From Ramlibacter sp. (GTDB lineage Bacteria; Pseudomonadota; Gammaproteobacteria; Burkholderiales; Burkholderiaceae_C), in contig JAQGMS010000328.1 of the NCBI GenBank assembly GCA_028292245.1, positions 1 to 40,692 of the forward strand: a stretch of DNA of 40,692 bases, in the 5' to 3' direction. Every line of letters begins with the position of its first letter. The first letter of the stretch is position 1. Below are positions 703-24,194 of the stretch, piece by piece. The notes beneath the pieces are model-generated. The model was not told where the DNA came from. It ran no database searches and saw nothing but the letters and a program-made list of their open reading frames with translations. The position numbers were made by a program, and so were the translations under genes.

Positions 703-1893
703 ATGGATCGTCAGCCGACGCGGAGTGGTCAGAGCTTCGGGCCGCTGCTCGAAGCGGTGCGGCGCATCGCTTCCGAGGTGGCCGCGCCCAACGCCGCGGA
801 CGTCGACAGCCAGGCACGCTTCCCCGGGGAAACCCTTGCAGCACTGCGCGACGCCGGCGTGCTGTCGGCGGCGGTGCCGCGCGAACAGGGCGGCGCGGGT
901 TGCGGTCTGCTGGAGCTGGCTCAGCTGTGTTCCACGCTGGCGCAGGCCTGCGGCTCCAGCGGCATGGTGCTGGCCATGCACTACATCCAGCTCGCGTGCA
1001 TCGCGCACCACGGGCAGGAGAGCGAGTTCTTCAAGAGCTACCTGCGGGACATCGTGCAGCACCAGCACCTGCTGGCCTCGATGACGTCCGAGGTCGGAAC
1101 CTTCGGCGAAACACGCACCAGCGTCTGCGCCGTGGAACGCGAAGGTGGAAAGTTCGTCCTGAACAAGGACGCCACCACCGGCTCGTACTGCGCGCACACC
1201 GATGCGATCCTCGTCACCTGCCGCCGCGACGCGCAAGCGCCCGGCACCGACCAGGTGCTGGTGTTGGTGCGCAAGGAAGACTGCACCATCAAGCAGACCA
1301 CCAGCTGGGACACGCTGGGCATGCGCGGCACCTGCAGTCCGGGCTTTCGCCTCGAATCCTCCGGCCCCGAGCAGCAGATCCTGCCCGGCGCATTCGCCGA
1401 CAGTTCCGCGCAGACCATGGTTCCCTATTCGCACGTGCTGTGGTCTTCCGTGTGGTGGGGCATCGCGGCCGACGCCGTGGGCAAGGCCGCCAACTTCGTG
1501 CGCGGCCAGGCGCGCCAGGCACCGGGCACCGTGCCGCCCACCGCGACGCGGCTGGCCGAGGCGTCGCTGCAATTGCAGAACATGAAGCAGCTCTGGCAGT
1601 CCGCGGCCACCGCGTTCGACGCCATCGGGCCCGACTCCAGGTCGCGCGAGGAATTGCTCTCCATGGGCTGGGCCCTGCGCCTGAACAACCTCAAGATTTC
1701 CTGCTCCGAGGCGGCGCCGCAGATCGTCCACCGCGCGTTGCAGATCGTCGGCATCCTGGGCTACAAGAACGACAGCCCGTTCAGCCTGGGCCGGCAGTAC
1801 CGCGACAGCCTCTCGGCCTCGCTGATGATCTCGAACGACCGGATCGCGGCCAAGAGCGCATCGATGCTGCTTATCTTCAAGGACGGACCGTGA
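703..1893 (+). CDS. Acyl-CoA dehydrogenase-like flavoprotein (possible aminoacyl- or acyl-carrier-protein oxidase)
   Basis: A 396-aa protein with the acyl-CoA dehydrogenase layout: a helical N-terminal domain, a middle beta domain including a WDTLGMRGTCS stretch, and a C-terminal helical bundle (about residues 235-396) for FAD and substrate. The start is set by GGGAG eight bases upstream of the ATG. In the C-terminal helix, where many family members have a YEGT motif with the catalytic Glu, this protein reads LMISNDR. The base is therefore absent or lies elsewhere, as it does in isovaleryl-CoA dehydrogenase-type members. The gene overlaps the amino acid:[carrier protein] ligase by a GTGA junction. 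That arrangement suggests it acts on an aminoacyl- or acyl-S-carrier protein rather than on CoA esters, by analogy with the flavoproteins that oxidise prolyl-S-PCP. The substrate is inferred only. Confidence 0.8.
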   Translation: MDRQPTRSGQSFGPLLEAVRRIASEVAAPNAADVDSQARFPGETLAALRDAGVLSAAVPREQGGAGCGLLELAQLCSTLAQACGSSGMVLAMHYIQLACIAHHGQESEFFKSYLRDIVQHQHLLASMTSEVGTFGETRTSVCAVEREGGKFVLNKDATTGSYCAHTDAILVTCRRDAQAPGTDQVLVLVRKEDCTIKQTTSWDTLGMRGTCSPGFRLESSGPEQQILPGAFADSSAQTMVPYSHVLWSSVWWGIAADAVGKAANFVRGQARQAPGTVPPTATRLAEASLQLQNMKQLWQSAATAFDAIGPDSRSREELLSMGWALRLNNLKISCSEAAPQIVHRALQIVGILGYKNDSPFSLGRQYRDSLSASLMISNDRIAAKSASMLLIFKDGP

Positions 1894-2801
1894 CCGTTTC
1901 CTACGACATCACGAATTTCTACAACGAGCTGGTCGCGCACGGCCTGATCCTGCCCAATGGCGTCAAGGGCGCCTATGGCCGCGGCGCCGTGTTCGAGGAG
2001 ATCGCCCGCGCCTTCAACGACCTGGTCAGCCGCATCGCGAAGAACGACGGCGCGCAGGAGGTGATGTTCCCGCCGGTGCTGCCGCGCGCGCTGGTCGAGA
2101 AGATGGGCTACATGGACAGCTTCCCGCAGTTGGCAGGCTCGGTCCACAGCTTTGTCGGCAACGACGCGGCCGCGCGCGAAATTTCGGAGCGCGTCCACGC
2201 CGGCCTGCGCTGGGAAGACATGCTGGAACCCACCGAGCTGATGCTGGTGCCCGCCGCGTGCTACCCGGTCTACCCGAACTTCAGCGGCCTGCTGCCGGGC
2301 GGCGGCCGGTTGATCACGGTGTTGAACTGGGTGTTCCGCCACGAGCCTTCGGACGAGCCGACGCGCCTGCAGTCGTTTCGCATGCGCGAGTTCATCCGCA
2401 TGGGCCAGCCTGACGACGTGCTGGCCTGGCGCGACGAGTGGCTGCGGCGCGGCCTCGACCTGTTGCAGGGACTGGGCCTGCCGGCGCAAAGCGACGTGGC
2501 GAACGATCCCTTCTTCGGCCGCACCGGCAAGATCCTGGCGGCCAACCAGCGCGAGCAGCGCCTGAAGTTCGAGATCATGGTGCCGGTGATTTCGCTGGAG
2601 AAGCCCACCGCCGTCGCCTCTTTCAACTGGCACCAGGACCACTTCAGCTCGTTGTTCGGCATCAGCAATGCCGACTCATCCGTGGCGCACACCGCGTGCC
2701 TGGGTTTCGGGCTGGAGCGCGTCACCTTGGCGCTGATCAAGGCACATGGGTTCGACCCAAAGACTTGGCCGGAAGAGGTGCGTGGGCAGTTGTGGCCTTA
2801 G
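1890..2801 (+). CDS. Amino acid:[carrier protein] ligase (class II aminoacyl-tRNA synthetase-like, SerRS-type core without tRNA domain)
   Basis: A 303-aa protein matching the class II synthetase-like ligases described from Bradyrhizobium and Agrobacterium. Those activate glycine or alanine with ATP and load it onto a small carrier protein instead of tRNA. It is only a catalytic core with no N-terminal tRNA-binding coiled coil. Motif 2 is visible as VFRHEPSDEPTRLQSFRMREF (residues 148-168, written here by its key residues R150, H151, E152 and R166) and motif 3 as CLGFGLERV. The Cys124-Glu167-Cys270 spacing fits the zinc triad of this family and of archaeal-type SerRS. The GTG start overlaps the previous stop (GTGA), so translation is coupled to the flavoprotein. 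A true seryl-tRNA synthetase is excluded by the missing tRNA domain. The amino acid used cannot be read directly; glycine or alanine is expected from the family. Confidence 0.88.
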   Translation: MTVSYDITNFYNELVAHGLILPNGVKGAYGRGAVFEEIARAFNDLVSRIAKNDGAQEVMFPPVLPRALVEKMGYMDSFPQLAGSVHSFVGNDAAAREISERVHAGLRWEDMLEPTELMLVPAACYPVYPNFSGLLPGGGRLITVLNWVFRHEPSDEPTRLQSFRMREFIRMGQPDDVLAWRDEWLRRGLDLLQGLGLPAQSDVANDPFFGRTGKILAANQREQRLKFEIMVPVISLEKPTAVASFNWHQDHFSSLFGISNADSSVAHTACLGFGLERVTLALIKAHGFDPKTWPEEVRGQLWP

Positions 2802-3368: not shown

Positions 3369-6300
3369 ATGGTCAAAGCAAGTGCTGTATTTACGGGCGA
3401 TGGCAGCCTACTGATTCAATGCGCGCAAGCGTGGCGCAAGCGCGGCCACGAAATTCGCGCCGTCGTTTCGCACAATCCGGCCATCCTGGAATGGGCGGCG
3501 TCCGAAGACGTGACTGCGATCCGCACCGACGGCGACTCGCGGTTCGAGCTGCCCGAGATGGAGTTCGACTACCTGTTCAGCGTCGCCAACCTCCAGATGC
3601 TGCCTCCAGCACTCACTTCACGCGCGTGCAAGCTGGCGATCAATTTCCATGACGGCCCCCTGCCCCGCTACGCCGGATTGAACGCGACCTCCTGGGCGCT
3701 GATGGCGCAGGAGGGCACGCACGGGGTCACGTGGCACGAGATGACTGGCAGCGCGGACGCCGGACGCATCGCACAGCAGGCGCTGTTTCCGATCCTGCCC
3801 GGCGACACGGCCCTGAGCCTGAACGCACGATGCTATGAAGCAGGACTGGCAACGTTCGAGTCGATGGCCGACGACATCGGCCGGGACGAGCTCGCGCTGA
3901 CGCCGCAAGGCGAGGGCCGCAGCTATTTCGGGCGCGCCCGCCGGCCCGCTGCATTGGCCACGCTCGACTTCTCACGGCCGGCGGCGGAACTGGCCGCGCT
4001 GGTGCGTGCGCTCGATTTCGGTTCGTATCCCAACCCGCTGGCGCGGGCGAAGGTCTACCTTGGCGACAAGGTGCTTTACGCGCAGTCGGCGCGTAGCGCG
4101 GAAAGCGTGCGCGCCGCCGCACCGGGAACGGTGCTCGGCCTCGACGGTGATGCGCTGCGCGTTGCCACGGGCGAAGGTGACATCGTGCTGGGCGGCATCT
4201 GCGATGCGGACGGCCGCCCTGCCGTTCACGGCGTCGCGCCCGGAATGGTCCTGCCGCTGCTTGGCGACGCGTTGCGCGGCAAGCTCGACGCCTGCATCCC
4301 GCGGGTCGCCAAGGGCGAAGCGTTCTGGGTCAAGGCATTCGCTGCGCTGTCGCCTGTCGAGCTTCCCTATCCGAGAACCGGTTCACCGCGCGCGGCCGGC
4401 GAGCCACGGTTCACGCGCGTGCGCGTCGATGCGGTCGCCGGCGGCGCCAGGACCGTGGCAGCCTTCTTCGCCTGGCTGTCGGCCCTGACCGGACAAGAGC
4501 GCGTAACGGCCCGGTATTGCGACAGCGCGCTGGCCGGACAGGCGAACGGGCTGGAGAGCTGGCTGTCGGCCTGGGTGCCGCTGACGCTCATCACCTCTTC
4601 CACGCTGCCGGTGCAGCAAGCAGTGGCCCGTGCCCAAGCCCGCATCGCCGAGGCGAATGACGCGGGACCCTACCCGCACGACCTGCCGTCGCGTCTTGGG
4701 GAAAAGCACGGCGCGGCCGCGCAGCCGCACAAGATCTGCATCAGCCGGGGCACGGCCTCACCGGCGAGCGATGCCGAGCTGCTGCTGGCCATCGACGCGT
4801 CGGGTGACGGCGCCATCGAACTGGTCGCGGATGAAGCCGCATTCTCCGGCGAGACCGTCCGTGCCATGGCCGCGCACCTGGCCTGGTATTTAAAGGCCTT
4901 CGACAGCGCCATTGCCTGCGTCGCCGATGTGCCGCTGATTCCGGCGCGCGAGGCGCAAGCCGTCGCCGCCCTCAACGCCACCACGACGTTCTTCGACACC
5001 GCCTCCTGCATTCATGACGCCATCGCTGCGCAGGTGGTGCGCACGCCGCACCAGGAAGCGATCCGCTGGCAAGGCCAGGCGCTGAGCTACCGCGAGCTGG
5101 ACGATAAATCCGATGCGCTGGCACGCGCGCTGGTGCGGCGCGGCGTGAAAGCCGGCGACGTGGTCGGCCTGTGCCTGGAACGAACGCCCGACCTCGTTGT
5201 CTCGCTGCTGGCGATCATGAAGGCCGGCGCCGCCTACCTGCCGCTCGATCCGGCGTATCCGCGCGAGCGCATCGCCTTCATGATCGAGGATTCCGGCACG
5301 CCGCTGGTGGTGACCACCTCCGCGCTCGCCGCATCGCTTTCGATCGGCACGGGAAAGGCCTTGCTGCTCGACGGCCCGGCGACCACCGGCACGGCGGTAG
5401 TGGCGCTGCCCATCGCGCGGCCCGAAAGCCCGGCCTATGTGATCTACACCTCCGGCTCGACCGGCCAGCCCAAGGGCGTGGTCGTCACGCACCGCAACGC
5501 GATGAACTTCTTCGCCGGCATGGCCGGCCGAATCGCGCACGATCCGCCCGGCCGCTGGCTGGCCGTCACCAGCCTGTCGTTCGACATCTCGGTGCTGGAA
5601 TTGTGCTGGACGCTGGCGCACGGCTTCACGGTCGTGCTGCATTCGGACAGCGTGGTTACCGAGTCGCAGCAGCCCCAGTTCAGCCTGTTCTATTTCGCCA
5701 CCGACAACGCGCGCGACCCGAAGGACCGCTACAAGCTGCTGCTGGAAGGCGCGAAGTTCGCCGACCGCGAGGGCTTCGAGGCAATCTGGACGCCCGAGCG
5801 GCATTTCCATGCGTTCGGCGGGCTCTATCCCAACCCGGCGCTCACAAGCGCGGCGGTTGCCGCCATCACGACCCGCTTGCAGATCCGCGCCGGCAGCTGC
5901 GTGCTGCCATTGCACCACCCGATCCGAGTGGCGGAGGAATGGGCTTTCGTCGACAACATCTCGCAAGGCCGCGTCGGTGTCTCGTTCGCGTCCGGCTGGC
6001 AGCCCAACGACTTCGTCATCGCGCCGCAGGCCTTCGCCAACCGCAAGACCGAGATGCTGGAAAACATCGACGTGGTGCGGCGCCTCTGGCGCGGCGAAAG
6101 CGTCGCGTTCCCGGGGCCGCAGGGCAAGCCGGTCGATATCACCACGCTGCCGCGGCCGATCCAGAAGGAACTGCCGATCTGGCTCACCGCCGCCGGCAAC
6201 CCCGAGACTTTCCAGCAAGCCGGCGAGATGGGCTGCCATCTCCTGACGCACCTGCTGGGCCAGAAGATCGAGGACGTGGCCGCGAAGCTGAAGCTGTACC

Positions 6301-7940
6301 GGCAGGCCTGGCGTGACGCCGGCCATCCGGGCGACGGCCATGTCACGCTGATGCTGCACACCTTCGTCGGCGACGACGACGACCAGGTGCGCGAAACCGT
6401 GCGCGGCCCGATGAAGGACTACTTGCGCAGCTCGGTCGACCTGATCAAGCAGGCCGCCTGGTCGTTTCCCACCTTCGTGCAGCGCGGCGCCGAGAACGGC
6501 AAGAGCCCGGTCGAGATCATGGACGCCAAGCCCCTGTCCGATGAAGAGATGGATGCGCTGCTGGAACACGCCTTCTCGCGCTACTACGGCACCAGCGCGC
6601 TGTTCGGCACGCCGCAGCGTTGCCTGGCGCTGGTGGACAAGCTCAAGGACGCGGGCGTGGACGAGATCGCCTGCCTGATCGACTTCGGCGTGGACGCCGA
6701 CACCGTGCTGGCGCACCTGGAAAATCTGAAGCAATTGATGCAGCTGGCGCACCGGCCGCGGCAGACCGCGCAACGCGTGTCGGTCGCGCAGGAAATCACG
6801 CAGCACGCCATCACCCATTTCCAATGCACGCCATCCATGGCGTCCATGCTGGTGGCCGACGCGCCGGGACGCACCGCGCTGTCACAACTCTCGGTGCTGA
6901 TGGTCGGCGGCGAGGCACTGCCGCTGCCGTTGGCGCGCGAGCTGCGCGCTTTGGTGCCGGAATCGGTCCTCAATATGTACGGCCCGACGGAAACCACCGT
7001 GTGGTCGACCACCTGCGAGCTGGGCAATCTCCAGGACTTCGTGCCGCTGGGCCGGCCGATCGCCAACACCCGCCTGTCGGTGCGCACGCCCTGGGGCGGT
7101 GAATGCCCGGCGCTGGTCCCCGGCGAGCTGCTGATCGGCGGCGAAGGCGTGGCGCGCGGCTATTGGCAGCGCCCGGAACTCACCGCCGAGCGCTTCGTTG
7201 CCGATCGCACCGAGCCGGGGGCGCGGATGTATCGCACCGGCGACCTGGTGCGCCGCCATCCCGACGGCGCACTCGAGTTCCTCGGCCGCATCGACCAGCA
7301 GGTGAAGATTCGCGGCCATCGCATCGAACTGGGCGAGGTCGAGACCGTGCTGCTTCAACAGCCCGGCGTCAAGCAGGCGGTGGTGGTCGCGCGCGATGAC
7401 GGTGCGGGCGGCCAGCAACTCGTCGGCTACGTCACGGCAGCGCCTGGCCTGGTGCTGGAACCGGGGCCGCTGCGCGACGCACTTGGCCGGCAACTGCCCG
7501 AGGTGATGGTTCCGCAACAGGTGCTGGTGCTGCCGGCACTGCCCCTCACGCCGAACGGCAAGGTCGACCGGCGCGCGCTGCCGGACCCGCGGGCCGCCAT
7601 CGCGGTGCGCGTCGCGGCCGCGCCCGGCAACGCGTTGGAGAAAACCATCGCCTCGATCTGGGCCGAGGTGCTGGGCTTGCCCGGCGTCGGAACCTCGGAC
7701 AACTTCTTCGACCTGGGCGGCCATTCGCTGCTGGTGGTGCAGGTGCAGCGCCGGTTGCGAGAAGCCAGCGGCCATGAGGTGTCGATCACCGACATGTTCC
7801 GGCTGCCCACGGTGCGCGCGCTGGCCGCGCACCTGGCCGGTAACGGAACCGCCGACGCGGTGGCCGATGGGCTGAGCCGCGCCCAGGCGCGCCGCAACAT
7901 GCGAACCCGTGTCATTCCCGAGCCCACCGCTGCGGCGTGA
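3369..7940 (+). CDS. NRPS: formyltransferase / degenerate C / adenylation domain with inserted luciferase-like monooxygenase / PCP
   Basis: A 1523-aa single-module synthetase. Residues 1-300 are a methionyl-tRNA-formyltransferase-like domain with Asn92, His94 and Asp130 in the catalytic positions, expected to N-formylate the bound amino acid. Residues 330-530 resemble the tail of a condensation domain with no HHxxxDG. The adenylation domain follows: A3 YTSGSTGQPKG at 693, A4 with Asp739, A5 at Tyr1204, A7 YRTGD near 1290, and A10 Lys1398. Between A4 and A5, residues ~770-1128 form a luciferase-like FMN monooxygenase of the MupA/Atu3671 type. My manual specificity code is DILQMGMVWK, close to the glycine code DILQLGLIWK. 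The PCP has FFDLGGHSL with Ser1453. The PKS gene follows 13 bp downstream. Formylation and hydroxylation of glycine are inferences. Confidence 0.92.
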   Translation: MVKASAVFTGDGSLLIQCAQAWRKRGHEIRAVVSHNPAILEWAASEDVTAIRTDGDSRFELPEMEFDYLFSVANLQMLPPALTSRACKLAINFHDGPLPRYAGLNATSWALMAQEGTHGVTWHEMTGSADAGRIAQQALFPILPGDTALSLNARCYEAGLATFESMADDIGRDELALTPQGEGRSYFGRARRPAALATLDFSRPAAELAALVRALDFGSYPNPLARAKVYLGDKVLYAQSARSAESVRAAAPGTVLGLDGDALRVATGEGDIVLGGICDADGRPAVHGVAPGMVLPLLGDALRGKLDACIPRVAKGEAFWVKAFAALSPVELPYPRTGSPRAAGEPRFTRVRVDAVAGGARTVAAFFAWLSALTGQERVTARYCDSALAGQANGLESWLSAWVPLTLITSSTLPVQQAVARAQARIAEANDAGPYPHDLPSRLGEKHGAAAQPHKICISRGTASPASDAELLLAIDASGDGAIELVADEAAFSGETVRAMAAHLAWYLKAFDSAIACVADVPLIPAREAQAVAALNATTTFFDTASCIHDAIAAQVVRTPHQEAIRWQGQALSYRELDDKSDALARALVRRGVKAGDVVGLCLERTPDLVVSLLAIMKAGAAYLPLDPAYPRERIAFMIEDSGTPLVVTTSALAASLSIGTGKALLLDGPATTGTAVVALPIARPESPAYVIYTSGSTGQPKGVVVTHRNAMNFFAGMAGRIAHDPPGRWLAVTSLSFDISVLELCWTLAHGFTVVLHSDSVVTESQQPQFSLFYFATDNARDPKDRYKLLLEGAKFADREGFEAIWTPERHFHAFGGLYPNPALTSAAVAAITTRLQIRAGSCVLPLHHPIRVAEEWAFVDNISQGRVGVSFASGWQPNDFVIAPQAFANRKTEMLENIDVVRRLWRGESVAFPGPQGKPVDITTLPRPIQKELPIWLTAAGNPETFQQAGEMGCHLLTHLLGQKIEDVAAKLKLYRQAWRDAGHPGDGHVTLMLHTFVGDDDDQVRETVRGPMKDYLRSSVDLIKQAAWSFPTFVQRGAENGKSPVEIMDAKPLSDEEMDALLEHAFSRYYGTSALFGTPQRCLALVDKLKDAGVDEIACLIDFGVDADTVLAHLENLKQLMQLAHRPRQTAQRVSVAQEITQHAITHFQCTPSMASMLVADAPGRTALSQLSVLMVGGEALPLPLARELRALVPESVLNMYGPTETTVWSTTCELGNLQDFVPLGRPIANTRLSVRTPWGGECPALVPGELLIGGEGVARGYWQRPELTAERFVADRTEPGARMYRTGDLVRRHPDGALEFLGRIDQQVKIRGHRIELGEVETVLLQQPGVKQAVVVARDDGAGGQQLVGYVTAAPGLVLEPGPLRDALGRQLPEVMVPQQVLVLPALPLTPNGKVDRRALPDPRAAIAVRVAAAPGNALEKTIASIWAEVLGLPGVGTSDNFFDLGGHSLLVVQVQRRLREASGHEVSITDMFRLPTVRALAAHLAGNGTADAVADGLSRAQARRNMRTRVIPEPTAAA

Positions 7941-7953
7941 GCGGACCAAAGCG

Positions 7954-10900
7954 ATGGAAGCAGTACCCCCAGACATCGAGCCCGGCAGCATCGCGATCGT
8001 CGGCCTGGCGGGCCGGTTCCCCGGCGCCCGTTCGCCCGCGCAGCTGTGGTCGCTGCTGGAAGGCGGCCGCGAAGCGACGCAGTGGCTGACGCCGGACGAA
8101 TTGCGCGCGGCCGGTGTGCCCGACGCCGACATCGACGATCCCGACTACGTGCGCGCCAGCCTGGTGCTGCCGGACATGGAAATGTTCGACGCCGAGTTCT
8201 TCGGTTTTTCCAAGCGCGACGCGGCGGTGCTCGATCCGCAGCACCGCCATTTCCTGGAGTGCGCCTGGGAAGCATTGGAAGACGCGGGCCACATGCCCGA
8301 GAACTTCAAGGGCGCGATCGGCGTGTTCGGCGGCTGCGGCATGCAGGCCTACTTGCCGTACAACCTGCTGACCAATCCCGAGCTCGTCAAGTCGATGGGC
8401 CTGTTCCTGCTGCGGCATACCGGCAACGACAAGGATTTCCTGTGCTCGCGCGTGTCGTACCTGCTCAACCTGAAGGGGCCGAGCATCAGCGTGCAGACCG
8501 CCTGCTCGACCTCGCTGGTCGCGGTGCACATGGCCGGCCAGAGCCTGCTGTCCGGCGAGTGCGACATGGCGCTTGCCGGCGGCGTGAGCATCGAGCTGCC
8601 GCACCGCCAGGGCTATCACTACGCCGAAGGCGAGATCCTGTCGCCCGACGGCCATTGCCGCGCTTTCGATGACCAGGCTGCGGGCACGCTGTTCGGCAGC
8701 GGCGCCGGCATCGTCGTGCTGCGCCGCCTGGAAGACGCGATCCGCGACCGCGACAACATCTATGCCGTGATCCGCGGTTCGGCCGTGAATAACGACGGTT
8801 CGCAAAAGGCCGGCTATCTCGCGCCGAGCGTGGACGGCCAGGCGCGCGCCGCGGCCGAGGCGCTCGCCGTCGCCGGTGTGGCGCCGGCCACGGTCTCGTA
8901 CATCGAAGCCCATGGCACCGGCACCCCTGTAGGCGACCCGATCGAACTCGCGGCGCTGGCGCAGGCCTATGGCGGCGCGGCGCGCGGCTCCTGCGGCATC
9001 GGCTCGCTCAAGACCAACATTGGGCATCTCGACACGGCCGCGGGCGTCGCGTCGCTGATCAAGGTGGCGCTCGCCATGCGCCACGGGCTGATCCCCGCGA
9101 GCCTCAATTTCAGCCGGCCGAACAGCCGCTTCGAATTGGCGGCAACGCCGTTCCGCGTGGTCGACCAAGCCAGGCCCTGGCCGCGCGGCGGCGCGCCTCG
9201 CCGCGCCGCCGTCAACTCGCTGGGCGTCGGCGGCACGAACGTGCACGTGATCGTCGAAGAGCCGCCCTTGCAGCCAGCGGTGGCCGATACGGGCTGGCAC
9301 GTCGTCACGCTGTCGGCACGAACGCCGGCGGCGCTCGAGCGCCTCAAGGCCAAGTGGCGCGATTTTCTCGATACACCGCCGCTTGGCCTGACGCTGGCCG
9401 ATGCCGCGTACACCACGCAGGTTGGCCGCCGCACGTTCGAACACCGCTGCGCCATCGTCGCGCGCGACCTCGCGGATTTGCGCGCCGTGCTGGGCGCGAA
9501 GAACCATCCGCGCTGCTTCAACGGCAAGGCAACAGCCGCAGCACCGGGCGTCGCGCTGATGTTCCCCGGTGGCGGCGCGCACTACCCGGGCGCCGGCCGC
9601 GAATTGCTGGGCCAGCCGGCCTTCAGGCGCGCGGTCGACGAATGCTTTGCGCTGATGCCCGCCGACGCGCCGCCGGACCTGCGCACGCGCATGTTCGAAG
9701 GCGATCCGCAGGACGCCGCCGCCGCGAGCACGCTCGAGCGGCCCAGCTATGCGCTGCCGGCCCTGTTCACGCTCGAATATGCGCTGGCCAAATTGTGGGA
9801 GAGCTGGGGCATCGTCCCCGCCGCCGTCATCGGCCACAGCGCCGGCGAATACGCCGCCGCCTGCCTGGCGGGCGTGATGTCGCTGGCCGATGCCTTGTCG
9901 GTGGTCGTCGTGCGCGGCCGCCTGTTCGAGGAAGTGCCCCTGGGCGGGATGCTCTCGGTCGACCTGGCGGAGCCCGAGCTGCGCGAAGCGATGGAGGGGC
10001 TGGACCTGGACATCGCGGCTATCAACGCCCGCGACTTGTGCATCGCCTCCGGTGCGTTGCAATCGATCTCGCGGCTGGAAAAGCGCCTTGCCGACAAGGG
10101 CATCGAAGGGCGCCGGCTGCACATCAACGTGGCCGCGCACTCGCACCTGCTCGACGGCGTGCTGGGCGCTTTCCGCCAGCACGTGTCGCACATTCGCCTG
10201 AGCGCGCCCTCCATTCCCTTCGTGTCCAACCTCACCGGCACCTGGGCCGATGCGCAGGCGCTGGCCGACCCCGAGTACTGGGTCAAGCACCTGCGCAACC
10301 CGGTCCGTTTTTCGGATGGCGTGCGCACGCTGCTGGAGCTGCCGGACACGGTACTGGTCGAAGCCGGCCCGGGCCAGGGCCTGTGCGCGCTGGCGCGCCA
10401 GAACTGCCAGGGCCAGCCCCGCACGATCCTGCCCTCGACTTCGAAGGCGCAGGAGCCGAACGCCGACCTGGCGCAGATGATGTCCGCCGCGGCGGGGCTG
10501 TGGACTCGCGGCGCGGCCCCGAAATGGGAGGTGCTGCGCGGCACTGCGCAGCCGCGGCGTGTCTCCGTCCCGACCTACGCCTTCGAACTCCAGCGGCACT
10601 GGATCGAGCCCGGCGTCGTGCAACACCCGCAGGCGCGAACGCAGGAAGCCAAGCCGGCCCGGTCGGCATTGATCGACCGGCTGGAGTCCCGCGACGATTG
10701 GTTCACGACGCCACGCTGGGCTGCCATCCCCCCCGCAGCGGCCGCCGCCGCGCCCGTGCACTGGCTGGTCTTCGGCAGCCGCTCCAAGCTCACGGCCGAT
10801 GTCGTTGCGCAGGCGGCGCGCGAAGGCGGCAGCGTCACCGTCGTGCGCCGCGGCGATGCGTTCGCCAAATTGGCCGACGGCAGCTTCACGATCGATGCGC

Positions 10901-13900
10901 GCAACGCCGCGCATTACGGCGAATTGCTCGCCGCGCTGGAGCAGGCGCAGGCGCTGCCGGAGCAGATCCTGCACCTGTGGCCGCTCGACACGATCCAGAG
11001 CGCGGGCAGCCGGCGCATCGCGGGCCAGACGCTCGCCTTCGACAGCCTGCTTCACCTGGCCAAGGCGGTGCAGGAGCGCGACATGGATTCGCCGATCCGC
11101 CTCACAGTCGTCACGGCCGGTTGCCAGGCGGTGATGGGCGAAGCCGTGCCGCACCCCGAGCGGGCGCTGGCGCTGGGGCCCTGCCGCGTCATCCCGCATG
11201 AGCTGCCCAACGTGCGCGCGCGCATGATCGACCTGGCTCCGTTCGACGTGTCTTCCGAAGGCGCCGCGCGCCAGATCGTTGCCGAGAGCCGGTCGGATGA
11301 CGACATCGACCTGGTTGCCTTGCGCGACGGCCAGCGCTGGGCGCAGCAACTGGTCGAGGACGCCGCGACGCCGGCATCCGGCGCGGCGCAGCGCGTGCGC
11401 AATGGCGGCGTGTACCTGATCACCGGCGGGCTGGGCGACATCGCGTTGGACCTGGTGGCCTGGCTGGCGGTGACGCACCAGGCGCGGGTGGCCCTGGTGA
11501 GCCGCCGCGCGCTGCCGGCCAAGGCCAATTGGCGCGGCCTCGCGGCCAGCGGCGACCACTCCAGCGAAGTGCGCGTGATACGGCGGCTGCTGGCATTCGA
11601 GGACGAGGGCGCGCAGGTCGCGGTGTACCGCGCCGACGTGGCCGACCGCGACGCGATGGCCAAGGTGGTGGGCGATTGCCGCGCGCAGTTCGGCACCATC
11701 AACGGAGTCTTCCACGCGGCCGGCACGCTGGAGGACGGGCTCATCGCCGCCAAGAGCGCCGACAGCGTCGAGCGCGTGCTCAACCCCAAGGCCTGCGGCG
11801 CGCAGGTGCTGCATGAATTGCTGCCGCCCGGCGACCTCGACGTGTTCGCCGTGTTCTCGTCGACCAGCGTATTCCTGGGCTCCGCGGGACAGGTCGACTA
11901 CGTCGCCGCCAACGCATTCCTGGACGCGCTTGCCGCATCGCGGTCCGACGGGCTGGTGATTCACTGGGGCATCTGGGGCGACAAGGGCATGGCCGCGCGC
12001 GCCTATGGACGCCACGGCCTGGGCCACGCGCCGGAAGGGACCCATCCGCTGCTCGGCCTGCAAGCCGGCAGCGGGGAAGGCATTGCCTTCGAGGCCAACT
12101 ACTCGCCGCGCGACCTCTGGGTGCTGCAGGAGCATTCGGTGGCCGGGCGCCCGGTGTTGCCCGGCACGGCTTACATCGAGATCGCGCGCGCGGCGATGGG
12201 CGTGCTGCATCCGGGCGCCGGCATCGAGATCTGCGCGCTGTCGTTCGAAGAGGCGATGGTGTTCGACGGTGCGTCGGCGCGGCTGGTGCGCACCGAGATG
12301 CAACCGGCCGGCGAGGGCTACGAATTCCTGGTGCGCAGCCGCGGTCCGCTGGACGAGCACTGGCTGGAGCACGCGCGGGCCCGCGTCAGCGTGTACGCGG
12401 GGACCCTGCCCGCGGCATCGCCCGTGCGCAGCGGCGGTGAGTGGCGCAAAGGCGCGATCCCGCAGGCGCAAGCCGTCGCGTTCGGCGCGCGCTGGAACAA
12501 CATCGCACGCATGCAATTGAATGAGCGCAGCGCCATCGCCGAAATCTCGCTGCCGGAACAATTCGAGGACGACCTGGCGGAATACACCAGCCACCCGGCA
12601 CTCACCGACATGGCGGCGACGTTCGGCCTTCATTTGGTGGACAGCGCGCAGCGCCGCGCCAACCTGTTCGTCCCCCTTTCGATCGAGCGCATCCGGCTGG
12701 TGGCGCCGGTGCCGCGCACCACCATCAGCCGCGTGCAGTTGAAGGGTGGTCCGCAAGATCGATTCGCGGCCTTCGACGTCAGCCTGCACACGCCCGATGG
12801 CCTGCCGGTCGCGACCTTCGAAGGATTCTCGCTGCGCGGTGTGCAGCCCGCGGCCATGTCGCACCAGGATCGCAACCGCGCGCGGCGCGAGCCCAGCCTG
12901 CCCGAGGCGATGCTGGCCCGCGGCATCAAGGCCGAGGATGCGCCCGCGCTGTTCGACCGCATCTTCCGTGGCGCGAGCCGCGACGTCGTGGTTTCATCCA
13001 TGGCGATTGCCGACATCCGGCGGGCGATGGCCGCGGCTGCGCCCAAAGGCGCAATGCGCAAGGCCGCTGGTTCCGGCGAACCGGCGCAGGCCGCGGGCGA
13101 AGGCCTGAACGCGGTCGAGCGCACGATCGCCGATGCCTGGCGCGAACTGCTGGGGGTGGAAGAGATCGGCAGGGACGACGACTTCTTCGCACTGGGCGGC
13201 CATTCGCTGGCGGCGGTGCGCCTGTTCGCCAAGATCCGCAAGAACTTCGCGGTCGACCTGCCGCTGGCCACGCTGTTCCAGGCTTCCACCCTCGGCGGGC
13301 TGGCCGCCGTCGTCGCGCACAGCGCCGGCCTGGAGACGCCACCGGTCGCCGACGCGCCGAAGAAGGCCGCGTCGAACGTGATCCCGCTGGGCACGCGCGC
13401 CTGGTCGCCGCTGGTGGCGATCTGCCGAGGCCGCGCCGACCGCAAGCCCCTGTTCTGCGTGCACGGCGCCGGCGGCAACGTGCTGAACTTCAAGGTGCTG
13501 TCGGACCGGCTCGGCGCCGACCAGCCTTTCTACGGGCTGCAGGCGCAAGGCGCGGACGGCCGTTTGCCGGCCCTCACGTCGGTGGAGGCAATGGCCGCGC
13601 AATATGTCGAGGCGATCCGCACGGTCGATCCGCAGGGGCCTTACCGGCTCGCCGGCTATTCGGGCGGCGGGATGATCGCCCTGGAGATGGCGCAGCAGCT
13701 GGTCAAGACCGGCGCGAAGATCGACCTGCTGCTGATGATCGATACGCTGTCGCCGGCGGCGGCGCGGCGCAAGGTGTCGTATTTCAAGAAGCTGTGGCTG
13801 ATGCGCCACTGGTCGCTGAAGTTCGCGCTGGACTGGCCGGAGCGCCGCCGCAAGAGCAAGTTGATGGACCTGAACTATGGGCTGGCCCTGGAAAAACTGG

Positions 13901-14226
13901 CGCGCGGCGAGCCGTTGCCGCCTGAGCTGGTGGAGCATCACCTGTTCGTCAACTTCGTCGCCGCGCAGGCGCACTACAACCCGCAGCCTTATGAAGGACC
14001 GGTCGCGCTCTTCAAGGCGACCGAAAGCGAGATGCTGTACCTGCAAGCCGGGCGCAGCCTGGGCTGGGAAGAGCACATCCGTGGCGAGATCCGCGTGACG
14101 GACATCGCCGGGTCGCATTTCTCGATGATGGCCGAGCCGGGTGTTTCGGAATTGATCGAAGGGATGAGGAAGGAACTGTCGGCCGCCGACGACAAGCCGG
14201 TGCATCCGCAAACGCGGGTGGCGTGA
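7954..14226 (+). CDS. Type I polyketide synthase module KS-AT-KR-DH-ACP-TE
   Basis: A 2090-aa module. The KS has Cys184, His320 and His358. The AT has GHSAGE with Ser629; its downstream signature reads VAAHS rather than HAFH or YASH, so malonyl use is likely but not proven. The KR has a nucleotide loop TGGLGDIA, a LED in place of the LDD motif, Ser1303 and Tyr1316. The DH has HSVAGRPVLP with His1394, and Asp1552 in HPALTDMA. The ACP has GGHSL with Ser1751. The TE has GYSGG with Ser1903 and a late His2055. No ER domain is present. KR precedes DH, the reverse of the usual order. I chose the ATG at 7954, 13 bp after the NRPS stop; a GTG at 7909 would overlap the NRPS and add 15 unlikely residues. 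Neither has a clear ribosome site, so coupling is probable. The TE makes this the releasing module. Confidence 0.93.
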   Translation: MEAVPPDIEPGSIAIVGLAGRFPGARSPAQLWSLLEGGREATQWLTPDELRAAGVPDADIDDPDYVRASLVLPDMEMFDAEFFGFSKRDAAVLDPQHRHFLECAWEALEDAGHMPENFKGAIGVFGGCGMQAYLPYNLLTNPELVKSMGLFLLRHTGNDKDFLCSRVSYLLNLKGPSISVQTACSTSLVAVHMAGQSLLSGECDMALAGGVSIELPHRQGYHYAEGEILSPDGHCRAFDDQAAGTLFGSGAGIVVLRRLEDAIRDRDNIYAVIRGSAVNNDGSQKAGYLAPSVDGQARAAAEALAVAGVAPATVSYIEAHGTGTPVGDPIELAALAQAYGGAARGSCGIGSLKTNIGHLDTAAGVASLIKVALAMRHGLIPASLNFSRPNSRFELAATPFRVVDQARPWPRGGAPRRAAVNSLGVGGTNVHVIVEEPPLQPAVADTGWHVVTLSARTPAALERLKAKWRDFLDTPPLGLTLADAAYTTQVGRRTFEHRCAIVARDLADLRAVLGAKNHPRCFNGKATAAAPGVALMFPGGGAHYPGAGRELLGQPAFRRAVDECFALMPADAPPDLRTRMFEGDPQDAAAASTLERPSYALPALFTLEYALAKLWESWGIVPAAVIGHSAGEYAAACLAGVMSLADALSVVVVRGRLFEEVPLGGMLSVDLAEPELREAMEGLDLDIAAINARDLCIASGALQSISRLEKRLADKGIEGRRLHINVAAHSHLLDGVLGAFRQHVSHIRLSAPSIPFVSNLTGTWADAQALADPEYWVKHLRNPVRFSDGVRTLLELPDTVLVEAGPGQGLCALARQNCQGQPRTILPSTSKAQEPNADLAQMMSAAAGLWTRGAAPKWEVLRGTAQPRRVSVPTYAFELQRHWIEPGVVQHPQARTQEAKPARSALIDRLESRDDWFTTPRWAAIPPAAAAAAPVHWLVFGSRSKLTADVVAQAAREGGSVTVVRRGDAFAKLADGSFTIDARNAAHYGELLAALEQAQALPEQILHLWPLDTIQSAGSRRIAGQTLAFDSLLHLAKAVQERDMDSPIRLTVVTAGCQAVMGEAVPHPERALALGPCRVIPHELPNVRARMIDLAPFDVSSEGAARQIVAESRSDDDIDLVALRDGQRWAQQLVEDAATPASGAAQRVRNGGVYLITGGLGDIALDLVAWLAVTHQARVALVSRRALPAKANWRGLAASGDHSSEVRVIRRLLAFEDEGAQVAVYRADVADRDAMAKVVGDCRAQFGTINGVFHAAGTLEDGLIAAKSADSVERVLNPKACGAQVLHELLPPGDLDVFAVFSSTSVFLGSAGQVDYVAANAFLDALAASRSDGLVIHWGIWGDKGMAARAYGRHGLGHAPEGTHPLLGLQAGSGEGIAFEANYSPRDLWVLQEHSVAGRPVLPGTAYIEIARAAMGVLHPGAGIEICALSFEEAMVFDGASARLVRTEMQPAGEGYEFLVRSRGPLDEHWLEHARARVSVYAGTLPAASPVRSGGEWRKGAIPQAQAVAFGARWNNIARMQLNERSAIAEISLPEQFEDDLAEYTSHPALTDMAATFGLHLVDSAQRRANLFVPLSIERIRLVAPVPRTTISRVQLKGGPQDRFAAFDVSLHTPDGLPVATFEGFSLRGVQPAAMSHQDRNRARREPSLPEAMLARGIKAEDAPALFDRIFRGASRDVVVSSMAIADIRRAMAAAAPKGAMRKAAGSGEPAQAAGEGLNAVERTIADAWRELLGVEEIGRDDDFFALGGHSLAAVRLFAKIRKNFAVDLPLATLFQASTLGGLAAVVAHSAGLETPPVADAPKKAASNVIPLGTRAWSPLVAICRGRADRKPLFCVHGAGGNVLNFKVLSDRLGADQPFYGLQAQGADGRLPALTSVEAMAAQYVEAIRTVDPQGPYRLAGYSGGGMIALEMAQQLVKTGAKIDLLLMIDTLSPAAARRKVSYFKKLWLMRHWSLKFALDWPERRRKSKLMDLNYGLALEKLARGEPLPPELVEHHLFVNFVAAQAHYNPQPYEGPVALFKATESEMLYLQAGRSLGWEEHIRGEIRVTDIAGSHFSMMAEPGVSELIEGMRKELSAADDKPVHPQTRVA

Positions 14227-14715: not shown

Positions 14716-14779
14716 CCATCATTCGCATCAGGGCCTGCGGCAATGGTGCATGATGGCGGCGTCGATAAAGGAACCTGTC

Positions 14780-15376
14780 ATGGAAGACCCCGAAAACGAA
14801 TCCCCGCCGGCAGCAACCGCTGAGCCGCGCAATTCATTCCTGGAAGAAAAAGCATTCAAGTCGCGCACCGTGCTGTTGTTCGGTGCGATCTCCGACGCGA
14901 CGGCCAGCGACGTGGCGCGGCGCCTGATTGCCCTGGACGCCGATTCGGCCGCGCCGATCGACATGCTGGTGAGTTCGCCCGGCGGCCACCTGGAGTCGGG
15001 TGACGCCATCCACGACATCCTGCGCTTCATCACCGCGCCGGTGAACATGATCGGCACCGGCTGGGTCGGCAGCGCCGCCACGCACTTGTACCTGGGCGTG
15101 CCGCGCGAGCGGCGCTTCTGCACGCCCAACACGCGCTTCCTGATCCACCAGCCCAGCGGCGCCTCGGGCGGCCAGGCCACGGACATCGCCATCCACGCCC
15201 AGGAAATCCTGAAGGCGCGCGAACGCATCGCGCGCGTGATCTCGCGTGAAACCGGCAAGCCGCTGGACTCGGTGCTGCTGGACATCGAGCGCGACCGCTG
15301 GCTGTCCGCCGAGGAGGCCGTGGCCTACGGGCTGGTGGGCCGCGTCATCCAGAACAAGGCCGAACTGAAGCGTTGA
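14780..15376 (+). CDS. ClpP-like serine protease (Clp proteolytic subunit paralogue)
   Basis: A 198-aa ClpP-fold protein. The catalytic triad is visible at Ser98 (GWVGSAAT), His123 (FLIHQPSG) and Asp172 (ERDRWLSAEEA), nearly the canonical spacing. The SSPGG oxyanion-loop motif is also present. It therefore looks like an active peptidase. The Ser context GWVGSAATHLYL differs from the housekeeping GQAASMGAFLL, which marks it as a paralogue rather than the main clpP; no clpX is adjacent. The start at 14780 is preferred because AAAGGA precedes it at good spacing, over ATGs at 14750 and 14753. Its stop abuts the stop of the convergent TPR gene with no gap (TGATCA). Confidence 0.85.
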   Translation: MEDPENESPPAATAEPRNSFLEEKAFKSRTVLLFGAISDATASDVARRLIALDADSAAPIDMLVSSPGGHLESGDAIHDILRFITAPVNMIGTGWVGSAATHLYLGVPRERRFCTPNTRFLIHQPSGASGGQATDIAIHAQEILKARERIARVISRETGKPLDSVLLDIERDRWLSAEEAVAYGLVGRVIQNKAELKR

Positions 15377-17977
15377 TCAGCCGGACGGAAAGCGGCGGTC
15401 GAACATCTCTTCGTACGCCGTCTCCAGCGCGTCGGCCAGGCCCGCCCCGTCGCACAGTTCGCTGTTGCGCATGCGCTCGCGCTGGGTTGCCCGCAACTCG
15501 CGGCGCAGCGGGAGGTCCCGGGCCAGCGCGACAACCTTCGCCACGTAGTCGTCGGCGTCTTGGGCAATCCACTCCGGATGACCCAGGCCATGGAGCAGCG
15601 AGGCCGTGACCCGCTGCGCCAGCCGGTCGCCGGGCAGGGTCACGACGGGCACGGCCATCCACAATGCGTCGCAAGTCGTGGTGACGCCGCCGAGTCCGCC
15701 GATCGGGTCGAGCGCGATGTCCAACTCGTCGTAGGTTGCCAGGTGCGAGGCGAAGTCCGTCCTGCCGCGCAGGACGAGCCGGCCCTCGGGAACACCCAAC
15801 TGCGCGAAAGCAGCTTGGACCCAACGCCGGTTGGACTCGTCGTCGAGTTCACCGGCCTTGAGCAGCAGCTTGCCCTCCGGCAGCGCGTGCAGGACCTTCG
15901 CCCACAACGCCACCGTGGCGGGTGTGACCTTGTTCAGCTTGTTGAAACTGCCCAGCATCACGGTTGCGTCCCCATGTGGGCGCCACATCGCCCCGGGGGC
16001 GGCCTCCGAGCCCTGGTAGCTGAGCCACACGCGTGGCAGCCGCCAAGGTGTTTCGCTGAAATGGCCCTCGTCCGACTCGGGCATGAGAACCCTGTCGCCG
16101 ATCCAGTAGTCCATCTGGGACAGGCCGGTGCTCGCAAAGTAGCCGATGTAGTGTGCCTGCACCGGCGCCGCGCGCCGCGCGAATACATCGAGGCGCGAAT
16201 GCCGGGTGTGGCCCGACAAGTCGATCAGGACATCGATCTCGGCTTCGCGGACCAGGCGGCAAGCCTGATCGCTGCCCAGGCCGAGCAAGCTGTGCCAGCC
16301 ATCGGCCAAAGCGCGCATGCGGACGGTCGTGCCGTCTTCAATGGCACTGGTGGAATAGGCGATCACCTCCACGCGCTTGCGGTTGTGCAGCAGGAACAGA
16401 GGCTCCAGGAATTTGCTCACCGGATGCTCCCGCAAGTCACCGGACACATAGCCGATGCGCAGCCGCCGGCCCGCTCTGGGCGTCCGCTGGAAGAGGTTCG
16501 GATCGGGCAGGGCTTCCGCGGCGCCGCCAAACGCTACCATCTCCCAGGTGCGCGCTTCTTCCACGTACTGCGCCGGCGTTACGTTGCAACAAAGCGCCAT
16601 GGAATACAGCAGGTTGGTCTGCGCGTCGTAAAAACCTGGCCGAAGCGCAACGGCGCGCCGGTAACCCTCCTGCGCTTCTTCCGGCCTGCCCAAGTCCTGC
16701 AGCGCATTTCCAAGATTGGCGTACGCCTCGGCGAGATCGGGGTTGAGCGCGATGGCGTGCCGGCAGCTCGCCTCGGCTTCCTCGAATTTCCTGCGGGCAT
16801 GCTGCACATTGGCCAGGTTGACGTAGGCCTCCGGGAGATCGGCCTTGATGGCGATGGCGCGCCGGCAGCTGTCTTCGGCTGCGTCCAGCCGCCCCAGGTG
16901 CCGCTGCGCGGCCGACAAGTTGCTGTAGGCCTTGGCAAAATTCGGGTTCAGCGCAATTGCCCGCAGGTAGCTTGCCACCGCGTCTTCCAGCAGTTCCAGC
17001 TCTTGCAGCGCCCCGCCCAGGTTGCAATGCGCCTCGGCGAAGTCGGGCTTGAGCTCGATCGCGCGCCGGTAACTGGCCACCGCTTCGTCCAATCGCTTCA
17101 GTTCCTTCAGTGCGTTGCCCAGGTTGTGGTGCGCGCCGGGCGAATCGGGCGCCAATTCGGCGGCCCGGCCAAAGTACCGCAGCCCGTTGGCCCAGTTCTT
17201 TTCGATCATGGCCAGGATGCCCAGGCTGTTGGCCACGGCGGCTGAATTCGGGTCGAGCGCCCAAGCGCGTTCGTACGCGGCACGCGCCTCGTCGAAGCGC
17301 CGGACCTCATGGAGCGCGGTTGCATAGTTGGTCCACGCGGCCACATTCCCCGGCTCTTGGGCCGGCACCTTCTGCAGCGCCTGGAGGGCGCCGGGCAGGT
17401 CGCCGCTTTGGCGCCTGAGCCCGGCCAGCAACGTCCACAACTGACTCATGTGCGGCTTCAGCGAAGCGGCACGCTCCGCGTCGGCCAAAGCACCGGCGAT
17501 GTCGTTCGAGCGCACGCGAAGCATGGCCCGGTTGGCGTGCGCCTCCGCGTAGTCGGGCCGCAGGCCGAGCGCTCGCTCCACCCATTGGGTGGCCTCGCCC
17601 TCCTGCCGGTTGGCGCCCAACGTCGCGGCCAGGACCAGGCACGCTTCCGGGTCGTCCGGTGCGCCATCGCACGCAGCTCGCGCGGCCAGCAGCGCTTCCG
17701 CGGCCCGGCCCTTCTTGAGGTGCAGGCGAGCCTGGCTGCACTGCACGAACGGGTCGCCGGGCGCAAGCGCCTGGGCCTGGGCCAGCACGGCCTGGGCTTC
17801 ATCGTCTTTCTTTTCCAGCAGCAGCAGCTGGACCAGCAGCGCCAGGGCGCGGACATCGCCGGCGTGCGTGCCGAGCCAGCCGCCGACCATCCCCGCGGCT
17901 TGCGCGTACCTGCCCGCCTCGCGCAACGCGATCGCCGCCGACAGCAGCGCCGCGCCTTGATTTGCAATTGTTTCCAT
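15377..17977 (-). CDS. TPR-containing O-GlcNAc transferase-like protein (SPINDLY / GT41 family)
   Basis: An 866-aa protein. About the first 490 residues are tandem tetratricopeptide repeats, roughly a dozen units with repeated A.A...LG......EA..SYRRAIAL patterns. The rest is a GT41 glycosyltransferase domain. Family landmarks are GYVSGDLREHPVSKF near residue 510, whose His matches the catalytic-site His of human OGT, FNKLNK near 678 with the nucleotide-sugar Lys, and DPIGGLGGVTTTCDALW near 755-771. It should transfer a sugar from UDP- or similar donors to protein Ser/Thr/Asn; bacterial members modify diverse targets and the substrate here is unknown. The protein is cytoplasmic, with no signal peptide. 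It starts 46 bp after the MFS gene on the same strand and may be read through from it. The ribosome site is poor. Confidence 0.9.
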   Translation of the reverse strand: METIANQGAALLSAAIALREAGRYAQAAGMVGGWLGTHAGDVRALALLVQLLLLEKKDDEAQAVLAQAQALAPGDPFVQCSQARLHLKKGRAAEALLAARAACDGAPDDPEACLVLAATLGANRQEGEATQWVERALGLRPDYAEAHANRAMLRVRSNDIAGALADAERAASLKPHMSQLWTLLAGLRRQSGDLPGALQALQKVPAQEPGNVAAWTNYATALHEVRRFDEARAAYERAWALDPNSAAVANSLGILAMIEKNWANGLRYFGRAAELAPDSPGAHHNLGNALKELKRLDEAVASYRRAIELKPDFAEAHCNLGGALQELELLEDAVASYLRAIALNPNFAKAYSNLSAAQRHLGRLDAAEDSCRRAIAIKADLPEAYVNLANVQHARRKFEEAEASCRHAIALNPDLAEAYANLGNALQDLGRPEEAQEGYRRAVALRPGFYDAQTNLLYSMALCCNVTPAQYVEEARTWEMVAFGGAAEALPDPNLFQRTPRAGRRLRIGYVSGDLREHPVSKFLEPLFLLHNRKRVEVIAYSTSAIEDGTTVRMRALADGWHSLLGLGSDQACRLVREAEIDVLIDLSGHTRHSRLDVFARRAAPVQAHYIGYFASTGLSQMDYWIGDRVLMPESDEGHFSETPWRLPRVWLSYQGSEAAPGAMWRPHGDATVMLGSFNKLNKVTPATVALWAKVLHALPEGKLLLKAGELDDESNRRWVQAAFAQLGVPEGRLVLRGRTDFASHLATYDELDIALDPIGGLGGVTTTCDALWMAVPVVTLPGDRLAQRVTASLLHGLGHPEWIAQDADDYVAKVVALARDLPLRRELRATQRERMRNSELCDGAGLADALETAYEEMFDRRFPSG

Positions 17978-19906: not shown

Positions 19907-19937
19907 GCCTGTCTCCTTCTGCTGCCTGGAACTGCGT

Positions 19938-21056: not shown

Positions 21057-21099
21057 CCTCGTCTCCATTCGTTGGTTGATTTGATTCAGGTGGCGCCCC

Positions 21100-22029: not shown

Positions 22030-22093
22030 CCGATTTCCTTTGCGCCGCAGCCGGCGCCATCTGTTTGACCCATAACCGTCTGGTTCCATACGG

Positions 22094-22106
22094 TATGCGC
22101 ATATGC
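22094..22106. promoter_or_regulatory. Overlapping palindromes upstream of the FAH gene
   Basis: TATGCGCATA (22094-22103) is a perfect 10-bp palindrome, and GCATATGC (22099-22106) a perfect 8-bp one that overlaps it. They lie 65-77 bases upstream of the FAH start, in the only sizeable gap (147 bp) inside the leftward catabolic gene set. They could be an operator for an internal promoter driving FAH-porin-VOC-MFS. Confidence 0.3.
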
Positions 22107-23130: not shown

Positions 23131-23144
23131 GGCGTCAAGGACCT

Positions 23145-24179: not shown

Positions 24180-24194
24180 GTCTTCGTCTCCGGT

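Follow-up and report, generated by a model that had tools for sequence, protein, structure and literature searches.

A formyltransferase-led NRPS-PKS gene pair in Ramlibacter with a monooxygenase inserted in its glycine-type adenylation domain

Organization of the gene pair

We analyzed a 40,692-bp contig of Ramlibacter sp. (JAQGMS010000328.1, assembly GCA_028292245.1), called here the window; it is one entire contig of a 558-contig, 5.8-Mb assembly that is 85.6% complete. Its forward strand carries a nonribosomal peptide synthetase (NRPS) gene (3369..7940, 1523 aa) and, directly downstream, a single-module polyketide synthase (PKS) gene (7954..14226, 2090 aa from its ATG). The NRPS stop codon ends at 7940, which leaves the 13-bp gap reported in a preliminary description of this DNA. 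Pfam confirms the parts listed there, a formyltransferase, an adenylation domain and a carrier protein in the NRPS and a single PKS module ending in a thioesterase. The domain content and order, the intact catalytic residues, their conservation and the site of the monooxygenase insertion are all read directly from sequence.

The NRPS hits Formyl_trans_N, Formyl_trans_C, AMP-binding in two pieces with Bac_luciferase between them, AMP-binding_C and PP-binding; its best whole-protein match in PDB is LgrA. The formyltransferase (FT) domain, with both its N and C parts recognized by Pfam and its fold by Foldseek, covers residues 1-281 (3369..4211), and its active-site triad Asn92, His94 and Asp130 aligned exactly at the positions given earlier. 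Next come the C-terminal lobe of a condensation (C) domain (residues 282-545, 4212..5003; written C' below), which lacks HHxxxDG, and the first part of the adenylation (A) domain (5004..5675), reaching to and beyond motif A4 (FDISVLE, residue 738). A luciferase-like monooxygenase (LLM) is inserted at this point (residues 771-1123, 5679..6737), after which the A domain resumes (6777..7583) with motif A5 (NMYGPTE, residue 1202) and the A_C subdomain; a peptidyl carrier protein (PCP; 7644..7835), its serine within GGHSL, ends the protein. The first nine specificity-code residues, re-read through motif anchors, are DILQMGMVW and the tenth is the lysine of PNGK, reproducing the DILQMGMVWK originally read by hand; DILQ(L/M)G... 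is a code of glycine-type A domains. The FT triad and this glycine-type code support the earlier prediction of a formyltransferase-type initiation that probably uses glycine.

The PKS reads ketosynthase (KS), acyltransferase (AT), ketoreductase (KR), dehydratase (DH), acyl carrier protein (ACP) and thioesterase (TE) by Pfam. The KS with its C-terminal extension (7987..9456) has Cys/His/His; the AT (9559..10464) has its Ser and the motif VAAH; the KR (10765..11979), with structural and catalytic halves, has Ser and Tyr; the DH (12043..12855; HSVAGRPVLPG, HPALTD) has His and Asp; the ACP (13123..13311) has its Ser; and the TE (13447..14166; GYSGGG) has Ser, Asp and His, so that every catalytic residue is present. 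The canonical PKS order has DH before KR, whereas here the DH follows the KR.

Recurrence and conservation of the gene pair

The assembly is not confined to this genome and belongs to a recurrent family: 66 of the 92 loci examined have FT and LLM in one open reading frame (ORF). A PKS with a KS scoring above 700 bits lies inside the fetched stretch at 43 of these 66 FT loci, in 39 cases downstream on the same strand, in three upstream and in one on the other strand, and the exact order KS-AT-KR-DH-ACP-TE was read in 29 of the 43. The DH, detected in 40 of the 43 (window included), always follows the KR. The FT loci bear record labels of 12 phyla, some of which may be wrong because many of the records are metagenome bins. 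Because the same two-gene layout recurs in distant genomes, the architecture is far beyond what chance would produce. In open-licence literature we found no described product for an FT-LLM NRPS-PKS pair and no title that names this architecture, so the earlier statement that no product with this assembly has been described is borne out there.

Many of these loci come from an LLM scan of named genomes that gave at least 590 matches; we took the best 80, sorted by similarity to the window LLM, and the closest named matches among these best 80 are Ramlibacter. FT and LLM share one ORF at 56 of the 80 loci, a proportion that is not a prevalence because of this ranking by likeness to the window's own LLM. 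A search with FT-C' instead of LLM, covering 299 genomes of the same family, found matches in 14 genomes. Nine of these, window included, are full-length NRPS homologues, and the other five are ORFs of 400-728 codons, too short for such NRPSs. All eight full-length homologues besides the window carry the LLM. Applied at E <= 1e-80 with the window's own genome included, the FT-C' profile hit 15 of 398 genomes of a phylum sample and 24 of 59 genomes of a genus sample. Three loci (L162, L166, L170) appear to be duplicates of L064, L062 and L063, with contigs of equal length and identical gene runs, and "non-FT" in the locus, glycosyltransferase and linker counts includes loci cut by the stretch as well as L066, described below.

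Catalytic residues are conserved across the relatives, window included: KS Cys/His/His in 43/43, AT Ser/Arg/His in 43/43, KR Ser and Tyr in 40/42 (the other two being gaps), DH His and Asp each in 40/40, ACP Ser in 38/38, TE Asp and His in 30/30 and PCP Ser in 54/54. Over the 66 FT modules the triad counts are Asn 65, His 64 and Asp 66. One record name among the relatives may be wrong: L107, recorded as Comamonas sp. KCTC 72670, is by LLM branch length almost identical to L104 from Myxococcus sp. CA023.

The formyltransferase and the condensation C-lobe

We identified the roughly 260 residues between FT and A as the C-terminal lobe of a condensation domain. Searched against PDB, a profile built from 23 modules matches the C-terminal part of C domains, for example residues 194-461 of Txo1 and 190-434 of 7c1h. 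An AlphaFold2 model of the lobe alone has a mean pLDDT of 88.1, and its 50 listed Foldseek matches are NRPS chains, nearly all of which have condensation-type domains by title. The model of FT plus lobe (pLDDT 93.9) has as its 50 listed matches ArnA and other formyltransferase-fold enzymes, with ArnA 2bln at the top. By sequence too the window FT is nearer to ArnA and FMT (phmmer, ArnA 5.6e-16) than to LgrA (E 0.27-0.39); it belongs to another line than the LgrA-type FT, though it may work alike.

The C-domain motif HHxxxDG is absent from the FT-to-A stretch in all 66 FT modules. Among the 25 non-FT modules listed, it occurs in 15, at 314-341 residues ahead of A. Six of the ten without it are cut by the stretch (L077, L085, L089, L090, L093, L094), L066 has its FT in a separate ORF and L034 is of another type. 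Since the C-lobe is detected and HHxxxDG is absent in FT modules but present in most uncut non-FT modules, the FT mostly stands at the place of the catalytic N-lobe of a C domain. Such a replacement of half a condensation domain suggests that elongation and starter modules were interconverted by a simple swap, in a direction that it does not give.

Two variants of the NRPS deserve mention. In a bin labelled Chloroflexota (L066:6166-12430) the FT is encoded in a separate ORF upstream of C'-A[LLM]-PCP, with an LLM 69% identical to that of the window. The simplest member, from an Actinomycetota bin (L106:967-6633), has FT-C'-A[LLM]-ACP-TE in one protein of 1889 aa with no PKS domain.

The inserted monooxygenase

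The insert scores 526 bits (cut-off 244) to TIGR04020, the "MupA/Atu3671 family FMN-dependent luciferase-like monooxygenase", and its nearest solved relative is PuwE (PDB 6KET, E 2.1e-114), with which it has motifs in common. Its position between A4 and A5 is the same in FT and non-FT modules, the median A4-LLM linker being 35 residues (63 FT modules) versus 37 (24 non-FT) and the median LLM-A5 linker 76 (60 FT) versus 77 (21 non-FT). Both kinds also have the code pattern DILQxGM(I/V)W, with single-residue variants and, at part of the loci, positions left as gaps in the reading. Myxobacteria contributed four C-A[LLM]-PCP-TE proteins of 1750-1756 aa, encoded behind two PKS genes and MtaG-type by architecture; these have the insertion site and code pattern of the window together with a C domain bearing HHxxxDG.

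Identity to the window LLM is 56-57% for the MtaG-type proteins, 58-64% for other C-type modules and 56-86% for FT-type modules. Midpoint rooting divides the LLM tree into one side of 18 rows (11 C, four MtaG, two FT, one cut) and another of 73 rows (63 FT, three C, seven cut; support 88/96). This rooting does not give the order in which FT-type and C-type modules arose.

In myxothiazol and melithiazol biosynthesis, as reported in PMC10204066 and likewise PMC11342130, the glycine A domain carries between a4 and a5 a flavin monooxygenase that hydroxylates C-alpha, and the carbinolamide then splits into the chain amide and a glyoxyl thioester. Solanimycin B keeps its alpha-hydroxyglycine, and the monooxygenase there lies between a8 and a9 (PMC10204066). 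Because the window LLM lies between A4 and A5 of a glycine-type A domain, as in the modules reported to hydroxylate C-alpha, it is probably the nitrogen-bearing carbon that is oxidized, with the nitrogen perhaps even lost. By this analogy, N-formylglycyl-S-PCP would be expected to be hydroxylated on C-alpha.

Extender unit and release

The preliminary description had the chain extended by one malonyl unit, reduced, dehydrated and released by the TE. The single extension, the KR and DH steps and the TE release are supported, but malonyl is doubtful. Malonyl-type ATs usually read HAFH and the window AT reads VAAH. Across the 43 PKSs the first position of this motif is V (35) or I (6), the third A (38) or G (3) and the fourth H (43). 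VAGH is read at L023, L025 and L098; at the first two a zinc-type dehydrogenase gene directly follows the PKS, that of L023 scoring as a crotonyl-CoA carboxylase/reductase (TIGR01751, 580 bits) and that of L025 falling in the same gene cluster. At L112 a gene with a methylmalonyl-CoA-mutase C-terminal domain adjoins the PKS, and genes that cluster with it are present at L117 and L129. These VAGH ATs and the dehydrogenase- and mutase-type neighbors suggest that part of the family may take up a branched extender.

Ser serves as the TE nucleophile in 22 of 30 loci and Cys in eight. All eight Cys-TE loci have a family-2 glycosyltransferase gene (detected with our own hidden Markov models, HMMs) at most two genes downstream on the same strand, compared with two of the 22 Ser-TE loci, one of the 22 having no gene to look at. 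Six of the eight are sphingomonads and the other two belong to a single Caldimonas-like branch, so this association may reflect just one or two events. At two loci, L087 (Rhizobium) and L116 (Phenylobacterium), the PKS is fused to a further A-ACP-TE, which seems to add an amino acid to the chain.

Proposed chemistry and its alternatives

We propose a two-protein assembly line, a reading that we consider evenly balanced between right and wrong. The A domain would load glycine onto the PCP, and the N-terminal FT, in place of the acyl-donor half of a condensation domain, would formylate glycyl-PCP. The LLM embedded in the A domain would then hydroxylate the glycine C-alpha of N-formylglycyl-S-PCP; glycine, formylation and C-alpha hydroxylation are predicted here from family precedent. 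The carbinolamide may be kept, as an N-formyl-alpha-hydroxyglycyl group, or lose its formamide to leave a glyoxylyl thioester, two fates to which we give about equal weight. The PKS would condense this starter once with a malonyl-type extender, KR would reduce and DH dehydrate the product, and TE would release a short alpha,beta-unsaturated acid oxidized at its gamma carbon or pass the acid to another acceptor. As to product and role, we infer that a 4-formamido-4-hydroxycrotonate-like or a 4-oxocrotonate-like acid is a candidate. We think it rather improbable, though worth stating, that the pair is a widespread and so far undescribed "glyoxylyl-starter" line, in which the formyl group does no more than turn glycine into an N-acyl substrate of the LLM, the formamide leaving and a two-carbon aldehyde thioester (glyoxylyl) priming the PKS. 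On this reading the short acyl group would, in the glycosyltransferase-linked Cys-TE branch, be moved onto a polysaccharide, so that bacterial exopolysaccharides would be decorated by an NRPS-PKS line of their own.

Several observations weigh against hydroxylation of C-alpha within an FT-initiated line. The MtaG-type label given to the four myxobacterial proteins comes from their architecture and not from named records, and TIGR04020-type LLMs are also found with other partners (L034, L035 and PuwE). The FT histidine is absent in two Sneathiella modules (L070, L073) and the FT asparagine in L138, while L096 and L105, with sequence available upstream, show neither HHxxxDG nor any detectable FT. 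The window, unlike most of its close relatives, has no phosphopantetheinyl transferase (PPTase) gene beside the NRPS. Finally, since the tree largely parts FT-type LLMs from the C-type and MtaG-type ones, the chemistry of FT-linked LLMs could have shifted, for instance to nitrogen. The LLM would in that case hydroxylate the glycine nitrogen before formylation, giving N-formyl-N-hydroxyglycyl-S-PCP and, after one extension, 4-(N-hydroxyformamido)crotonate, a carboxylate relative of fosmidomycin-type retro-hydroxamates (compare hadacidin). An FT that formylates an N-hydroxylated amine would fit well beside such an LLM, and the PKS-less FT-C'-A[LLM]-ACP-TE protein of L106 would then release hadacidin itself. 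Necroxime adds a precedent of sorts, its oxime on a glycine primer being proposed to arise through an oxygenase with DH and methyltransferase (PMC7318616), although the protein family of that oxygenase is not stated in the portion consulted. We nevertheless judge N-hydroxylation unlikely: the A4-A5 insertion and the glycine code fit C-alpha-hydroxylating modules, and the nitrogen presented to the LLM in the related C-type modules would belong to an amide.

C-alpha hydroxylation also has to be weighed against readings in which the LLM plays a lesser part. The preliminary description favored N-formyl-4-aminocrotonate, an analogue of gamma-aminobutyric acid (GABA); the LLM would then be inactive, or an optional enzyme of a later step. 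The FT, the glycine code, the KR and the DH, all intact in the window, agree with such a product. However, the window LLM retains the motifs common to PuwE, and the LLM is present in every full-length homologue from the FT-C' search of the family; its presence in most other FT modules is partly circular because most were collected by LLM. To treat the LLM as optional also sits poorly with the A4-A5 glycine LLM modules, which are reported to hydroxylate C-alpha, and we now regard the GABA analogue as distinctly improbable. Cyclization of formyl-glycine to an oxazole, with LLM or DH assisting, would resemble the FT-A(Gly)-PCP loading modules that feed PKSs in oxazolomycin and conglobatin (PMC4504003). 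Those clusters have a CongE/OzmP protein, and none is named among the Pfam-scanned genes of the window, where no search was aimed at CongE/OzmP; moreover, ring closure is expected to require a beta-ketone, which would be lost through KR and DH. An oxazole is thus very unlikely here.

Relation to known systems

The window resembles and departs from several described systems, for which we drew on parts of the sources (those named above and below, and PMC8739492 and PMC13386464). MtaG and MelG of myxothiazol and melithiazol likewise carry a monooxygenase at the A4-A5 site of a glycine A domain; however, they terminate their assembly lines and have a full C domain and a TE in the same protein, whereas the window NRPS, with FT and C-lobe only, initiates a line that a PKS extends and that has its TE in the PKS. 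OzmO and CongA share FT-A(Gly)-PCP feeding a PKS, but yield a longer polyketide with an oxazole and no LLM is mentioned in the part consulted (PMC4504003), whereas in the window one module is followed by the TE. LgrA of linear gramicidin is an F-A-PCP initiation module that transfers formyl to the PCP-bound amino acid (PMC4504003); unlike it, the window has an FT nearer to ArnA/FMT, a C-lobe between FT and A, and an LLM in A. Module 4 of SolF (solanimycin) is also a glycine module with a flavin monooxygenase and leaves alpha-hydroxyglycine in the product (PMC10204066), but its insertion lies between a8 and a9 of an internal module and not between A4 and A5 of an initiation module. The solved PuwE chain (6KET) is LLM alone, where the window LLM is embedded in an A domain.

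Two known ideas, the loading module that formylates and the glycine module of A[MOX] type, are newly combined here in one initiation module. With only two proteins the chemistry can be settled in vitro, and with records of 12 phyla one product structure would help to annotate many genomes. It would also tell which atom, carbon or nitrogen, such oxygenases hydroxylate in a substrate with an acyl group no larger than formyl.

Gene neighborhood and glycosyltransferases

We surveyed Pfam families among the two nearest genes of 150-650 aa on each side of the NRPS-PKS loci. The FT census holds 145 of 172 eligible genes, from 58 of the 66 FT loci. Gene calls put large genes on the wrong strand at some loci, and eight FT loci gave no neighbor genes; the 27 genes left out are all those of the window, L028, L076, L102, L107, L110, L111, L131, L132, L133 and L140 and one each of L061 and L069. 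The most frequent family is Glycos_transf_2 (23 genes), followed by Hydrolase_4 (12), PPTase (ACPS; 10), Hexapep (6), Glycos_transf_1 (5), DegT (3) and Bac_transf (3). The control census holds 49 of 57 genes from non-FT LLM loci (L066, L121 and L128 left out). Glycos_transf_2 is outside the 25 families listed of 84 there, with a count of 0 or 1; no listed family has more than two members, and single-member families are only partly listed. Fisher tests gave p = 0.0014 (control 0) or 0.010 (control 1), values that ignore kinship and are optimistic because related loci are not independent. With our own HMMs, a family-2 or family-4 glycosyltransferase was found within the fetched stretch at 23 of 66 FT loci versus three of 26 others. 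This enrichment of family-2 glycosyltransferases among the neighbors suggests that some products may decorate glycans; the link, if true, would tie assembly-line enzymes to the cell surface.

Among the closest relatives of the window (18 loci, 15 of them different), a polysaccharide-deacetylase-like gene adjoins the NRPS in eight loci (seven different; the L021 copy has a PDB match of 1.6e-11) and a glycoside hydrolase family 5 (GH5) gene in four of the 18 (PF00150 for the L022 copy). A PPTase gene stands beside the NRPS in ten of the 15 different loci (12 with L065 and L068, only one gene having been called in L068). The window has neither a deacetylase-like nor a GH5 gene beside its NRPS but a ligase/dehydrogenase unit instead, and its other neighbors are unlike a glycan cluster save for one OGT-like gene (15377-17977). 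Five FT loci (L033, L080, L082, L103, L123) have pairs of alpha/beta hydrolase genes beside the NRPS; those of L033 and L080 match exosortase-A-associated hydrolases 1 and 2, below cut-off.

Other genes of the window

At the left end lie the start of a carrier-protein-like gene running off the contig end (1..65, - strand, read by eye), an AcpS-type phosphopantetheinyl transferase gene (128..466, - strand; PF01648, 54 bits) whose product is a possible activator, an acyl-CoA dehydrogenase-like (ACAD) gene recognized by Pfam (703..1893, + strand) and an amino acid--[ACP] ligase gene (1890..2801, + strand; NF005479, 403 bits, cut-off 357). We consider it doubtful that this unit is part of the cluster. 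Ligase, ACAD and AcpS stand together in G097, a genome without an FT-C' NRPS at E <= 1e-80, and also in G198, where about 78 kb separates them from the NRPS; in G212 and G118 the ligase and the NRPS start are 26-27 kb apart, and the ACAD gene is likewise kept away from the NRPS in relatives.

A divergent second ClpP gene (14750..15376, + strand), by profile of the PRK12553 type just under cut-off, lies on the strand of the PKS with its start 523 bp past the PKS end, and another, higher-scoring clpP is present elsewhere in the genome. The literature describes a clpP gene that confers self-resistance and adjoins an NRPS cluster, so we considered whether the cluster makes a ClpP inhibitor with this gene as the self-resistance copy. 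We rejected this idea as scarcely credible. Of the 59 genus genomes, 44 have the gene (the window's own among them, the rest at 74-87% identity), versus 24 with the FT-C' NRPS, and in G272 and G198 about 1 Mb separates the gene from the NRPS. In clusters of the azabicyclene/azetidomonamide kind clpP is tied to the cluster, whereas the window clpP is not.

Beyond it, by Pfam, is the OGT-like gene mentioned above, for a tetratricopeptide-repeat protein with a Glyco_transf_41 domain (15377..17977, - strand). An aromatic-degradation-like run on the same strand (18024..25022) comprises genes for a major facilitator superfamily transporter, a glyoxalase, a porin, a fumarylacetoacetate (FAA) hydrolase, a Fer2 reductase, a VanA-type Rieske oxygenase and LigB.

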